The notes beneath the pieces are model-generated. The model was not told the DNA's origin. It did no database searches and worked only from the letters and a program-made list of their open reading frames with translations. From Gemmatimonadaceae bacterium (GTDB lineage Bacteria > Gemmatimonadota > Gemmatimonadetes > Gemmatimonadales > Gemmatimonadaceae), in the NCBI GenBank assembly GCA_017881585.1, contig JADGQS010000008.1, positions 1-49,783 on the forward strand: DNA of 49,783 bases, in the 5' to 3' direction. Positions within the stretch are counted from its first letter, which is position 1. Each line of letters begins with the position of its first letter. The translations under genes were made by a program, and so were the position numbers. Of the stretch, positions 11,811-47,783 are shown piece by piece.

Positions 11811-12767
11811 TCATGCCTCCGCGAACCGCTCGATCCGGAACGGCGAGAGATCGAACCGGCGCCGCTCCCCCATGAGAACGTCGGCGATCGCCTCGCCGAT
11901 GGCGATCGAAAACTTGAAGCCGTGGCCCGAGCAGGGGCTCGCGATGAACACCGCGGGATGTTCGGGATGCACGTCGAGAATGAAGTTCTCGTCGGGCGTA
12001 TTGGTGTAGAGGCACACCGAGGTGGCGCGCAGCGCGCCGTTGGCGTCGGGGAGGAACGCCTTCAGGAGGCCGCGAACGCCCGCAACCTCGCTGTCGCTCA
12101 CGGCGCGGCGCACGGCCTGCGCGGTGGTCAACTCGCCCTGATGGTGCAGCGCGACCTTCACGCCATCGCCGAAGTTCGCGAATCCGTACCAGGTGCGCCC
12201 GGGTGCGTACTCGTGAATGAAGACCGGGAGCTTGTCCGGCGTGAACTCCGCGGCCTTCAGCGGATCGAACCAGTAGACGGCATTGCGCTCGATCTCCAGC
12301 GGGAGCGCGAGTTCCGGGACGAGGTCACCCATCCACGGGCCGGCGGAGATCACCAGCCGAGCGGCGGCGTCGTCGGGCGGTCGCAGGGCAGGGAAGCGGT
12401 CGCGCAGTTCGCCCGCGCTCAGCTCTTCGTACGGAAGGCGATGCTCGACCGCACTCGCGCGCGCGCCGCTCACCACCGCGCCGTCCGGTGCCCCGATCAT
12501 CAGCCCGCCCGTGCGCGTGAGCACGCGCTTCCCGGAACGTGCCTGCAGCTCAGCCCAGCCGTTGTACGCGCGCTTCACGAACGGCACGTAGAGCGGATCC
12601 TCGAAGTACGTCTCACGAATGATGCGCGACTTCCCGTGCGACGATCCGAACGAATGTGGCGGTGAGAACTGGTCGATGCCGAGCACGGCTTGTCCGCGCA
12701 GCGCGAGCTGATAGGCGGTGGAAGTTCCCATCGCACCAAGGCCGACGACTATGACGTCGTAAGGAAT
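11811..12767 (-). CDS. MSOX/SolA-type FAD amine oxidase, shortened and probably impaired
   Basis: The protein resembles monomeric sarcosine oxidase and N-methyltryptophan oxidase. It keeps FGSSHGKSRIIRETY, the CLYTNTPDENFILD segment with the covalent-FAD Cys, and SGHGFKFS near the end. Two things are wrong. The first ATG in frame (12731) would remove most of the FAD-binding GLGAMG motif; the similarity starts upstream at an ATT at 12767 (PYDVIVVGLGAMG), directly after a stop codon, with no ordinary start available. In addition, about 65 residues are missing between RFPALRPPDD and RLVISAGPWMGDL compared with relatives of about 370-390 residues; the frame is kept. The result is about 318 residues. 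I think it is a decaying gene or an odd variant, and expression would need an ATT start. Confidence 0.65.
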   Translation of the reverse strand: MPYDVIVVGLGAMGTSTAYQLALRGQAVLGIDQFSPPHSFGSSHGKSRIIRETYFEDPLYVPFVKRAYNGWAELQARSGKRVLTRTGGLMIGAPDGAVVSGARASAVEHRLPYEELSAGELRDRFPALRPPDDAAARLVISAGPWMGDLVPELALPLEIERNAVYWFDPLKAAEFTPDKLPVFIHEYAPGRTWYGFANFGDGVKVALHHQGELTTAQAVRRAVSDSEVAGVRGLLKAFLPDANGALRATSVCLYTNTPDENFILDVHPEHPAVFIASPCSGHGFKFSIAIGEAIADVLMGERRRFDLSPFRIERFAEA

Positions 12768-12779
12768 GGGTCTGTACTA

Positions 12780-12842
12780 GTGGGAGAGGTGAGGTTGAGT
12801 CGGAGGGATGAGTTTGCTCCAACTCAAACTCACTCCTCCCAC
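12780..12842. repeat. Hairpin of nine 7-base units (heptad repeat element)
   Basis: Sixty-three bases divide exactly into nine 7-mers. The left arm (12780-12800) is GTGGGAG, AGGTGAG, GTTGAGT. The right arm (12822-12842) is ACTCAAA, CTCACTC, CTCCCAC, its reverse complement with three mismatches. The 21-base loop is again three 7-mers (CGGAGGG, ATGAGTT, TGCTCCA). It lies just upstream of the damaged flavoenzyme gene and downstream of the ALDH stop, so it may act as an RNA hairpin or terminator for the latter. Confidence 0.75.
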
Positions 12843-12849
12843 TGCCGTG

Positions 12850-15273
12850 CTATTCGCCGTACGGAATCCAGATGTTCTTCACTTGCGTCGCGCGACGCAG
12901 GAACTCTCTTCCCTCACCCTGCTCGGCGCCGCTCCAATCTCGAGTGAACCCCTCGCACCACGCCTGCTTCATGTTCCCCGTCGACGCCATCTCGCACGCG
13001 CGAACGCCGTCCGCCGTGCCGAAATACCAGATCGCATCCACGTCGTCGTGCTCGGCGAGAACCTTCGCGAGTTCGTCGCGCCGGCCCGTCACGATGTTCA
13101 CCACACCCGCCGGCACGTCGGAGGTTTCGAGCACCTGATAGAAGTCCGTGACCGCCAGCGGGTGATGCTGGCTGGGAATCGCCACGACCGTATTGCCCGT
13201 CGCAATCGCCGGCACGATCGTCGAGATGAATCCGAGCAGCGGATATTCCGCGGGCGCCGCCACGCCGACCACGCCGATCGGCTCGTTCATCGCGAGCGTC
13301 ACGCCGCGAATCGGCGTCTGGTGCACCTGGCCATCCCACTTGTCCGCCCACGCCGCGTAGGTGAACAGCCGCGCGATCGTCGCGTCGACTTCGCCCTTGC
13401 CGTCACGCCCCGTGAGATCGCGGATGCGCGCCGCGAATTCGGCGGCTCTCGCAGAAAGGTTCTCGGCGATGTAGTAGAGAATCTGTCCGCGGTTGTGCCC
13501 TGTGCTCCGCGCCCAGCCCGACGCGGCGTTGCGCGCGGCCTCGACGGCGTTGCGGATGTCCTTTCGGTTGCCATCTCCGACATCGCCTGCGTGCGCGCCG
13601 TTGGCCGCGATGATCGGAATCGAGTAGCCGCTGTCCGGCCGGGCCTGCTTGCCGGCGATGAAGAGCTTGGGTGTGCGGTCAACCTGTGAAGCGTCGGAAG
13701 CCGGAAGCCGGAGGCCGGAGGATGACCTGGCTTTGGCCGCAACTATCTTCTTCTTGGCGTTGTCCGGCTTCCGGCTTCCGGCTTCCGGCTTCCGGCCCGT
13801 CCAATCCGCTTTCAGGTACTCCCACATCCCCTCCCGCCCACCCTCTCGGCCGTAGCCGCTCTCCCGGTATCCGCCGAATCCCGCGGCGGCATCGAACAGA
13901 TTCGTGCAGTTGATCCACACCACGCCCGCCTTCACCTTCGGCGCGACATCCAGCGCAAGGTTGATGTTCTCGCTCCAGATGCTCGCCGCGAGCCCGAACG
14001 GCGTGTTGTTCGCGAGCGCGACCGCTTCTTCGGGCGTGCGGAAACTCATCGAGACGAGCACCGGTCCGAAGATTTCCACCTGCGCGATCGTGCTGCTCGG
14101 TGCGACGTTCGTGAACAGCGTCGGCGGATAGAAGCATCCTTCTTTCGGCACCGCCCAGGTCGGCTGCCACAGCTCGGCGCCGTCCTTCGCACCCTGCTCG
14201 ACGAGCGAGCGGATGCGCTCGAGCTGCACCGGCGCGACGATCGCGCCCATGTCGATCGCCTTATCGAGCGGTGAGCCGACGCGAAGTTTCTCCATTCGCG
14301 CGCGCAGCTTGGTGACGAGCTTGTCGGCGATGCCCTCCTGCATCAGGAGGCGCGACCCGGCGCAGCAGACCTGTCCCTGGTTGAACCAGATCGCGTCCAC
14401 CACGCCCTCGACCACGCTGTCGAGATCGGCGTCCTCGAACACGATGAACGGGCTCTTGCCGCCGAGCTCGAGCGAGAGTTTCTTGCCGCTCCCCGCCGTG
14501 GCCTTTCGAATGATGCGGCCCACGTCCGTGCTGCCGGTGAATGCGAGCTTATCCACGTCCGGATGATCGACGAGCGCAGCGCCGGTGGAGCCGTCGCCCG
14601 TCAGGATGTTCAGCACACCCGGCGGCAGGCCGGCCTCGGCGGCGAGCTCGGCGAACGCAAGCGCCGTGAGCGGCGTGAACTCCGCCGGCTTGAGAATCAC
14701 GGTGCAACCCGCGGCCAGCGCCGGCGCGACCTTCCACGCCAGCATCAGCAGGGGGAAGTTCCACGGAATGATCTGACCGACGACTCCCGCGCCGTGATAG
14801 CCGGGGAATTCCGTCTCGAGCAACTGCGCCCATCCCGCGTGGTGGTAGAAGTGGCGCGCCACGAGCGGAATGTCGATGTCGCGCGTCTCGCGAATGCTCT
14901 TGCCGTTGTCCATCGATTCGAGCACGGCAAGCAGGCGCGCGTTTCGCTGCACGCTGCGCGCGAGCGCGTAGAGGTGCCGCGCGCGCTGATGTCCGCTGAG
15001 TTTCCGCCACGCGGGGAGCGCCTTGCGCGCCGCCTTCACCGCAACGTCCGCGTCACCCTTGCTCCCCTGCGCGACCTTCGCGAGAATTTGTCCGGTTGCC
15101 GGATCGATCACGTCGAATCGCGCGCCCTTCGCCGGCTTCGTCCACGCGCCACCGATGAAATGCCCGAACGACGCCTCGTGCTGGGCGATCCATGCGAGCG
15201 CCGGCTTGTCGCTCTCCGGCGCCGGTCCGTACTCCATCGACTCGAAGATTCCTGCGACGGTGCTGGCTGCCAT
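12850..15273 (-). CDS. Two-domain aldehyde dehydrogenase (ALDH16-like)
   Basis: The 807-residue protein joins two aldehyde dehydrogenase domains. The first (about 1-485) is complete, with IIPWNFPLLM, LELGGKSP (general-base Glu) and FNQGQVCCAG (catalytic Cys). The second (about 530-807) keeps the fold (GVAAPAEYPLLGF) but lacks the QGQxC motif, as in ALDH16 proteins, where the second domain is non-catalytic. The linker contains a 7-residue repeat (RKPEAGS-RKPD) and its inverted DNA copy, which come from heptanucleotide repeats at 13695-13722 and 13766-13793. The gene follows deoC after 3 bases, so it may oxidise the acetaldehyde released by DeoC; that is inference. The start at 15273 is the only sensible one given the deoC stop. 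Confidence 0.9.
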   Translation of the reverse strand: MAASTVAGIFESMEYGPAPESDKPALAWIAQHEASFGHFIGGAWTKPAKGARFDVIDPATGQILAKVAQGSKGDADVAVKAARKALPAWRKLSGHQRARHLYALARSVQRNARLLAVLESMDNGKSIRETRDIDIPLVARHFYHHAGWAQLLETEFPGYHGAGVVGQIIPWNFPLLMLAWKVAPALAAGCTVILKPAEFTPLTALAFAELAAEAGLPPGVLNILTGDGSTGAALVDHPDVDKLAFTGSTDVGRIIRKATAGSGKKLSLELGGKSPFIVFEDADLDSVVEGVVDAIWFNQGQVCCAGSRLLMQEGIADKLVTKLRARMEKLRVGSPLDKAIDMGAIVAPVQLERIRSLVEQGAKDGAELWQPTWAVPKEGCFYPPTLFTNVAPSSTIAQVEIFGPVLVSMSFRTPEEAVALANNTPFGLAASIWSENINLALDVAPKVKAGVVWINCTNLFDAAAGFGGYRESGYGREGGREGMWEYLKADWTGRKPEAGSRKPDNAKKKIVAAKARSSSGLRLPASDASQVDRTPKLFIAGKQARPDSGYSIPIIAANGAHAGDVGDGNRKDIRNAVEAARNAASGWARSTGHNRGQILYYIAENLSARAAEFAARIRDLTGRDGKGEVDATIARLFTYAAWADKWDGQVHQTPIRGVTLAMNEPIGVVGVAAPAEYPLLGFISTIVPAIATGNTVVAIPSQHHPLAVTDFYQVLETSDVPAGVVNIVTGRRDELAKVLAEHDDVDAIWYFGTADGVRACEMASTGNMKQAWCEGFTRDWSGAEQGEGREFLRRATQVKNIWIPYGE
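13695..13793. repeat. Inverted heptanucleotide repeats inside the ALDH linker
   Basis: On the plus strand 13695-13722 reads CGGAAGC twice, then CGGAGGC and CGGAGGA. From 13766 to 13793 come four perfect copies of GGCTTCC. The unit GGAAGCC and its reverse complement thus face each other across about 43 bases. Both arms stay in frame with the aldehyde dehydrogenase, because three 7-mers make seven codons. No spacer-repeat arrangement is present, so it is not a CRISPR array. Confidence 0.85.
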
Positions 15274-17327: not shown

Positions 17328-17330
17328 CAG

Positions 17331-17458
17331 GCGACGGGCGACGGGTGAGGGGCGACTTGGTTAGAGGCGACGAGTGAGGAGTGAGGTGACCGTCTCGTTG
17401 CTTCTCGCACGTCGCTCTTCACCAAATTGCCCCTCACCCGTCGCCCCTCGCCGTTTTT
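17331..17458. repeat. Heptad-repeat hairpin and probable terminator
   Basis: From 17331 the sequence reads in 7-mers: GCGACGG, GCGACGG, GTGAGGG, GCGACTT, GGTTAGA, GGCGACG, AGTGAGG, AGTGAGG. The right part reads CCCCTCA, CCCGTCG, CCCCTCG (17430-17450). Bases 17337-17361 and 17421-17445 form a 25-base inverted repeat with two mismatches, and a T5 run follows at 17454-17458. It lies between the convergent M28 gene and the response regulator gene and probably ends transcription on the plus strand. Confidence 0.8.
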
Positions 17459-22680: not shown

Positions 22681-22861
22681 GACAACTCGAACCGGCAGCT
22701 GTCAGCTGCAGGCCTCTGTCTGAGAGCTGTCAACTGACAGCTATCCGCTGACAGCTCCCAGAGAGGAATTCAAAAAGGCAGAGCCAACCCGGCCCTGCCT
22801 TTTCTTGTTTCATCTTTTGGAGCCTTCACCTGACACCTGTCAGCTGAGAGCTCTCAGAAAG
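22681..22861. repeat. Two heptad-repeat blocks (CAGCTG-type units) flanking a terminator
   Basis: Bases 22695-22757 read in 7-mers: GCAGCTG, TCAGCTG, CAGGCCT, CTGTCTG, AGAGCTG, TCAACTG, ACAGCTA, TCCGCTG, ACAGCTC. A second block at 22827-22861 reads CACCTGA, CACCTGT, CAGCTGA, GAGCTCT, CAGAAAG. The CAGCTG core is itself a palindrome, so many alternative hairpins can form. The blocks fill the space between infA and the convergent hydroxylase gene, on both sides of the terminator at 22772-22810. Confidence 0.8.
22772..22810 (+). terminator. Rho-independent terminator after infA
   Basis: AAAAGGCAG at 22773-22781 pairs with CTGCCTTTT at 22795-22803, and GCC with GGC extends the stem inside after one mismatch. 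The loop is short, and a T-rich tail (TTTTCTTGTTT) follows. The A-rich left flank makes it usable from the minus strand as well, ending the convergent hydroxylase operon. Confidence 0.8.
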
Positions 22862-47741: not shown

Positions 47742-47783
47742 GATGGAAGATCGAAGATGGAAGATCGAAGATGGAAGATCGAA
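47742..47783. repeat. Tandem heptad repeat (GATGGAA/GATCGAA)
   Basis: Three perfect copies of the 14-mer GATGGAAGATCGAA stand in tandem, that is, six alternating 7-mers GATGGAA and GATCGAA. They lie in the 166-base gap between pilQ and aroC, upstream of the unusual TTG start of aroC. Both 7-mer types are purine-rich on the plus strand. Confidence 0.88.

Follow-up and report, generated by a model that had tools for sequence, protein, structure and literature searches.

The hairpin at positions 12780-12842 of the window, which is the whole stretch of 49,783 nucleotides analyzed here (contig C38 of a Gemmatimonadota MAG, G000, of 3.09 Mb in 240 contigs), is probably a copy, with its centre deleted, of a non-coding palindromic repeat scattered over the genome and named family A; the copy would have reached the gap between an aldehyde dehydrogenase (ALDH) gene and an FAD-dependent oxidoreductase (DAO) gene in the lineage of G000 only. 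By itself, the hairpin is a modest finding. In its genome, long inverted repeats number about 70 per megabase; they fall into several families, are patchy within one genus, and lack the transposase expected of REP elements. The features of the region are as follows.

12850..15273, minus strand: upstream gene, double aldehyde dehydrogenase of 807 aa (Pfam Aldedh, two stretches)
11811..12767, minus strand: downstream gene, FAD-dependent oxidoreductase (Pfam DAO)
12779..12845, no strand assigned: short family A copy (AGTGGGAG...CTCCCACTGC), from blastn matches to about 8 other loci of its own genome and alignment to full-length ends
12779..12816, plus strand: left 38 nt of the element, which align with the left ends of full-length family A copies
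12817..12845, plus strand: right 29 nt of the element, which align with the right ends of those copies

The 63-nt hairpin consists of two complementary 21-nt arms with three mismatches (GTGGGAG AGGTGAG GTTGAGT and ACTCAAA CTCACTC CTCCCAC), between which lies CGGAGGG ATGAGTT TGCTCCA. It folds with -41.1 and -42.0 kcal/mol on the two strands (z -7.0 and -6.8), and none of 200 shuffles folds as well; the arms described in the earlier note are therefore borne out by both the letters and the fold. In the window, two inverted repeats of hairpin-like span with a score of at least 15 were observed, where an order-3 Markov control gives an expectation of 0.1. No match to Rfam covariance models at the gathering score was found in the window. 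The boundaries of the repeat, as given by the family alignment, are 12779-12845 and not 12780-12842. Its own genome holds about nine family A loci detected by blastn. Inverted match pairs occur at C156, C194, C126, and C6, their two members separated by about 165-285 bp, while C134, C6, C171, and C151 show single or partial matches. Full copies of about 200-300 bp begin with AGTGGGAG or AGCGATGAG and form imperfect palindromes whose arms measure 41-71 nt; the core GAGTACGAGTCGGAGGGATGAGTTGGAGAAAGTAG is present in both arms and GAGTGGGAG words are internal. Like a MITE, family A is short, non-coding, and dispersed, with terminal inverted repeats. Judged from the alignment to these copies, the window hairpin is an internally deleted family A copy, in which the outer 38 nt and the outer 29 nt are joined and a centre of about 150-230 bp is absent. 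A shortening of the right arm by 13 nt was also considered and dropped, since the alignment shows the two outer ends simply joined. Among 149 relatives searched, family A matches at E <=1e-4 were found in 6 of 17 same-genus genomes and, outside the genus but within the bacterial family, in a single genome; the core pattern is restricted to two Gemmatimonadetes MAGs among the genome contig records searched.

The history of the site is read from its relatives. The ALDH gene, which ends with a stop codon 7 nt away from the hairpin, is kept in 16 of the 18 genus genomes, and its pairing with DAO is common to G011 (ALDH protein 94-95% identical), G002 (90%), and G014 (89%). In these three nearest relatives the junction contains no hairpin, and the distance from the ALDH stop to the conserved DAO start region (D-V codons) is 16-24 nt, versus about 91 nt in G000. 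Given the absence of the hairpin from all three, it is read as a recent insertion in the G000 lineage; a single gain is simpler than three losses. Two further loci show the insertion polymorphism against empty sites that is typical of MITEs. The family A copy at C220 of G002 is absent from G000, G011, and G014, while the C156 copy is present with species-specific sequence in G000, G002, and G014 and missing from G011. Direct repeats at the flanks, TAGCAC/TAGTAC at the window copy and GCCCTGAC/GCCCGTGAC at C156, are no more than suggestive of target-site duplications; a flanking direct repeat was looked for at G002 C220 and none was visible. It is proposed that family A spread as a non-autonomous MITE/REP-like element, which would be moved by a trans-acting enzyme or would spread when its copies recombine. 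No gene-sized insert with family A ends on both sides, as expected of an autonomous parent transposon, was seen. As for the downstream gene, an in-frame TAG is located at 12779-12777 in the DAO frame. No ATG, GTG, or TTG start of DAO retains the FAD motif, and the sole candidate is ATT at 12767-12765; ATT is also the sole candidate in G002, with GTG in G011 and TTG in G014.

The window hairpin is one of many palindromes in this genome. The genome-wide counts rest on 788 kb of the 3.09 Mb, in which 55 long inverted repeats were found, versus one in a local-shuffle control. The families include A (the window hairpin), B (GGCGAGACCAGTGGGGAGTGG), D (CGAGTAATCGGTCGTTGGTCATTGG), and E (GATGCAGGATGCAG), and four further members, of families C, F, G, and H, lie in the window.

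13695..13796, no strand assigned: family G, inverted CCGGAAG heptamer arrays within the coding linker joining the ALDH halves
17330..17452, no strand assigned: family C (GGCGACGGGTGAGGGGCGA) palindrome, which fills a convergent-gene gap, leaving 2 and 12 nt to the stop codons
22719..22858, no strand assigned: family H (CTGACAGCTGTCAG), CTGACAG-type heptamers, a palindrome round an ordinary T-tailed hairpin
47742..47783, no strand assigned: family F (GATGGAAGATCGAA)x3 heptamer array

One point against the family A reading is that many family sites are long-standing orthologous ones, not new insertions. The family C element has an orthologue in G011 and only its right half in G014, and G002 carries a 3-kb insert there; around the T-tailed hairpin of family H (about 22772-22805), the orthologues in G011, G014, and G002 have kept their position while their sequence has drifted. 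Convergent-gene gaps are over-represented at palindromes (11/31 vs 35/229, Fisher p = 0.009, with crude gene calls). The presence and absence of the elements in relatives, which had been proposed as a check, turned out to be patchy: G014 is about as dense in palindrome families as G000, whereas none of families A-H was found in 200 kb of the same-genus G015 or in 100 kb of G095. Four contigs of G011 (C121:1, C50:1, C157:1, and C131:4) terminate within family B palindromes; the repeats therefore interrupt assemblies, which makes the copy numbers too low. In several families, a GC[AC]GTT tag lies just outside one end, pointing outward only (GCAGTT was counted 7 times vs 0.5 expected in G000 and 4 times vs 0.35 expected in G014; GCAGTT or GCCGTT sites include L059:16207, L072:18526, and L059:10640). 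It is possible that GCAGTT/GCCGTT is a recognition tag for the palindrome families; it was not seen in family A. No relevant publication on palindromic repeats of Gemmatimonadota turned up in the literature searched.

The sites shared between species reveal changes of word at a fixed position. At C9:7652, family B is present in G000 and G011 and a family A-like arm in G014; at C9:10545, these three genomes have different hairpin sequences in one gap. The C4 site of G014 contains A in that genome and B-like arms in G000, G011, and G002, with a similar left boundary. At 47742, GATGGAA/GATCGAA in G000 stands against GGCAGAC heptamers in the nearest relative, G011, and the ALDH coding linker contains CCGGAAG pairs in G000 and G014, a GACCGAA/GTCCGAA pair in G002, and none in G006/G008 (two ALDH contigs of G011 break at this linker). 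The alignable overlap of G000 and G014 is 70 kb. Since words and families are swapped at fixed sites, A and B may be drifted versions of one superfamily. The swaps fit repeated insertion at tolerant sites and renewal of the palindrome in place alike. In the second case, hairpins would be kept and renewed by replication, with slippage amplifying the words and template switching copying one arm to the other in the absence of any transposase, and a small recombination event between elements of this kind would have yielded the window copy. We regard this as unlikely, although it survives better than the other alternatives. Besides the swaps at C9, G014 C4, 47742, and the ALDH linker, it is favored by the lack of the Y1 transposase and by the agreement of arms within copies (in family A, an identity of 0.90 within a copy vs 0.83 between copies, p = 0.04, four copies; this agreement also counts in favor of the family A reading), but for families C and D, anchoring at palindrome ends partly confounds the arm test. 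Against renewal in place, near-identical cores at scattered loci, as well as the clean presence or absence at the ALDH-DAO junction and at G002 C220, require copying between loci. A broader proposal, to which we also give a low probability, is that within a Gemmatimonadota sub-clade the palindrome positions persist while the 6-7 nt words are replaced wholesale by species, in both arms together. If this is correct, then hairpin turnover would be self-templating and transposase-free, even in coding linkers, and the window would show a site where a hairpin had just been seeded. Fixed sites with differing words in species whose proteins are about 90-95% identical constitute a natural test of the origin, spread, and homogenization of palindromes, and of whether selection acts on hairpin shape itself.

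Returning to the deleted family A copy, its position between two co-oriented genes suggests a role in RNA. In an ALDH-DAO transcript, the element would form a stable intercistronic hairpin, which would mainly protect the upstream message and/or lower expression of the downstream gene. The strong fold and the start of the hairpin 7 nt past the ALDH stop could also point to an ordinary intrinsic terminator of the ALDH gene. However, no T-run follows on either side and no terminator-like site was found, the tandem gene pair is conserved in relatives whose junction has no hairpin, and family A copies occur at gene arrangements other than the tandem pair; a terminator is therefore improbable as an account of the element. 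Since this stable hairpin between co-oriented genes lacks a U-run, protection of the ALDH message or lowered DAO expression seems likelier than clean intrinsic termination.

A REP/REPIN-type origin has also been considered, in which the element would be moved by a RAYT (Y1) transposase. Palindromes tagged with GTAG/CGTC are known, REPINs are doublets of palindromes associated with RAYTs, and Y1 transposases are thought to mobilize REP elements (PMC3116915, PMC3733652). The elements of this genome resemble REPs and REPINs in being dispersed, extragenic palindromes with inverted pairs, hairpins, and genome-specific families (PMC3116915, PMC3733652), and the centre-deleted window copy is similar to defunct REPIN remnants (PMC3116915). 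In the search for transposases, whose scope was the Y1 type, PF01797 was found in 0/18 genus genomes, including that of the window, though the controls were positive. Moreover, no GTAG/CGTC tag adjoins the ends (on the gene strand, the sequence at the ends is CACGGC-AGTGGG...CCCACT-AGTACAG), and family A, at 200-300 bp, is much longer than REPs. We consider this origin very improbable.

The earlier note had read the hairpin as nine 7-mers, three in each arm and three in the loop, and had placed it in an STRR-like class of variable units with a constant length of seven. The genome-wide part of this claim stands for heptanucleotide elements as such: in the 788 kb, 37 lag-7 segments were found, versus 0-5 at lags 5, 8, 10, 11, and 13, and Markov controls gave 0-1, so that the proposed comparison with controls gave the excess expected for a heptanucleotide class. 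The words of the arrays are diverse, and many arrays come in inverted pairs. The part concerning the hairpin itself does not stand. Lag-7 identity is at chance level in its left part (8/28, p = 0.90) and in its right arm (5/14, p = 0.61), and, beyond a C.A mismatch, GGAG/CTCC extends the stem further than the 21-nt arms; since this pairing reaches into the supposed loop, the claimed 21-nt loop is not three 7-mers, and the stem and loop boundaries lie off the 7-mer grid. In family A arms, identity falls short of chance at lag 7 (z -3.7) and exceeds it at lags 6 and 13 (z 7.1 and 8.5), and the spacing from GAG to GAG is most commonly 6, then 2 and 7. The rhythm of family A is mainly hexameric, GAGNNN, with GAG at 6-base and sometimes 7-base steps, and the length of 63 = 9 x 7 is mere arithmetic. 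The heptamer reading of the window hairpin was thus refuted by the lag analysis, and an STRR-like element is the least probable of all the explanations, despite its length of 63 and the plentiful true heptamer arrays elsewhere in the genome.

Among known systems, cyanobacterial STRRs are abundant intergenic heptanucleotides arranged as direct tandem repeats. Abundant intergenic TAACTGA heptamers, also in direct tandem repeats, were described in Beggiatoaceae (PMC4679880). In Geobacter metallireducens, multicopy families of 4-5 heptamer repeats between and within genes were proposed to be regulator sites or RNAs; the multicopy organization is like that of G000, but the words are different (PMC2700814). 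The nearest published parallel found for the heptamer class is the inverted GGGAATC heptamer pairs of Xanthomonas, which are G-rich short inverted units, number 70-75 per genome, and occupy sites common to the species with variable length (PMC4692102). However, Xanthomonas has one dominant word (PMC4692102), whereas G000 has many words together, and the window hairpin is not heptameric. STRR and TAACTGA repeats are both direct tandem 7-mers, whereas the window hairpin has no 7-nt period.

Palindromic repeats of the MITE type in bacteria include ERIC, Correia/NEMIS, RUP, and SMAG. Family A shares with MITE, ERIC, Correia, RUP, and SMAG elements that it is a short, dispersed, non-coding palindrome, mostly intergenic and near stop codons, polymorphic between relatives, and able to form strong RNA hairpins (PMC3733652), although its arms drift very fast and the likeness is one of description. 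The best reading is that the window element, which misses the tested defining features of both heptamer and REPIN systems, behaves as a palindrome of the MITE/REP type.
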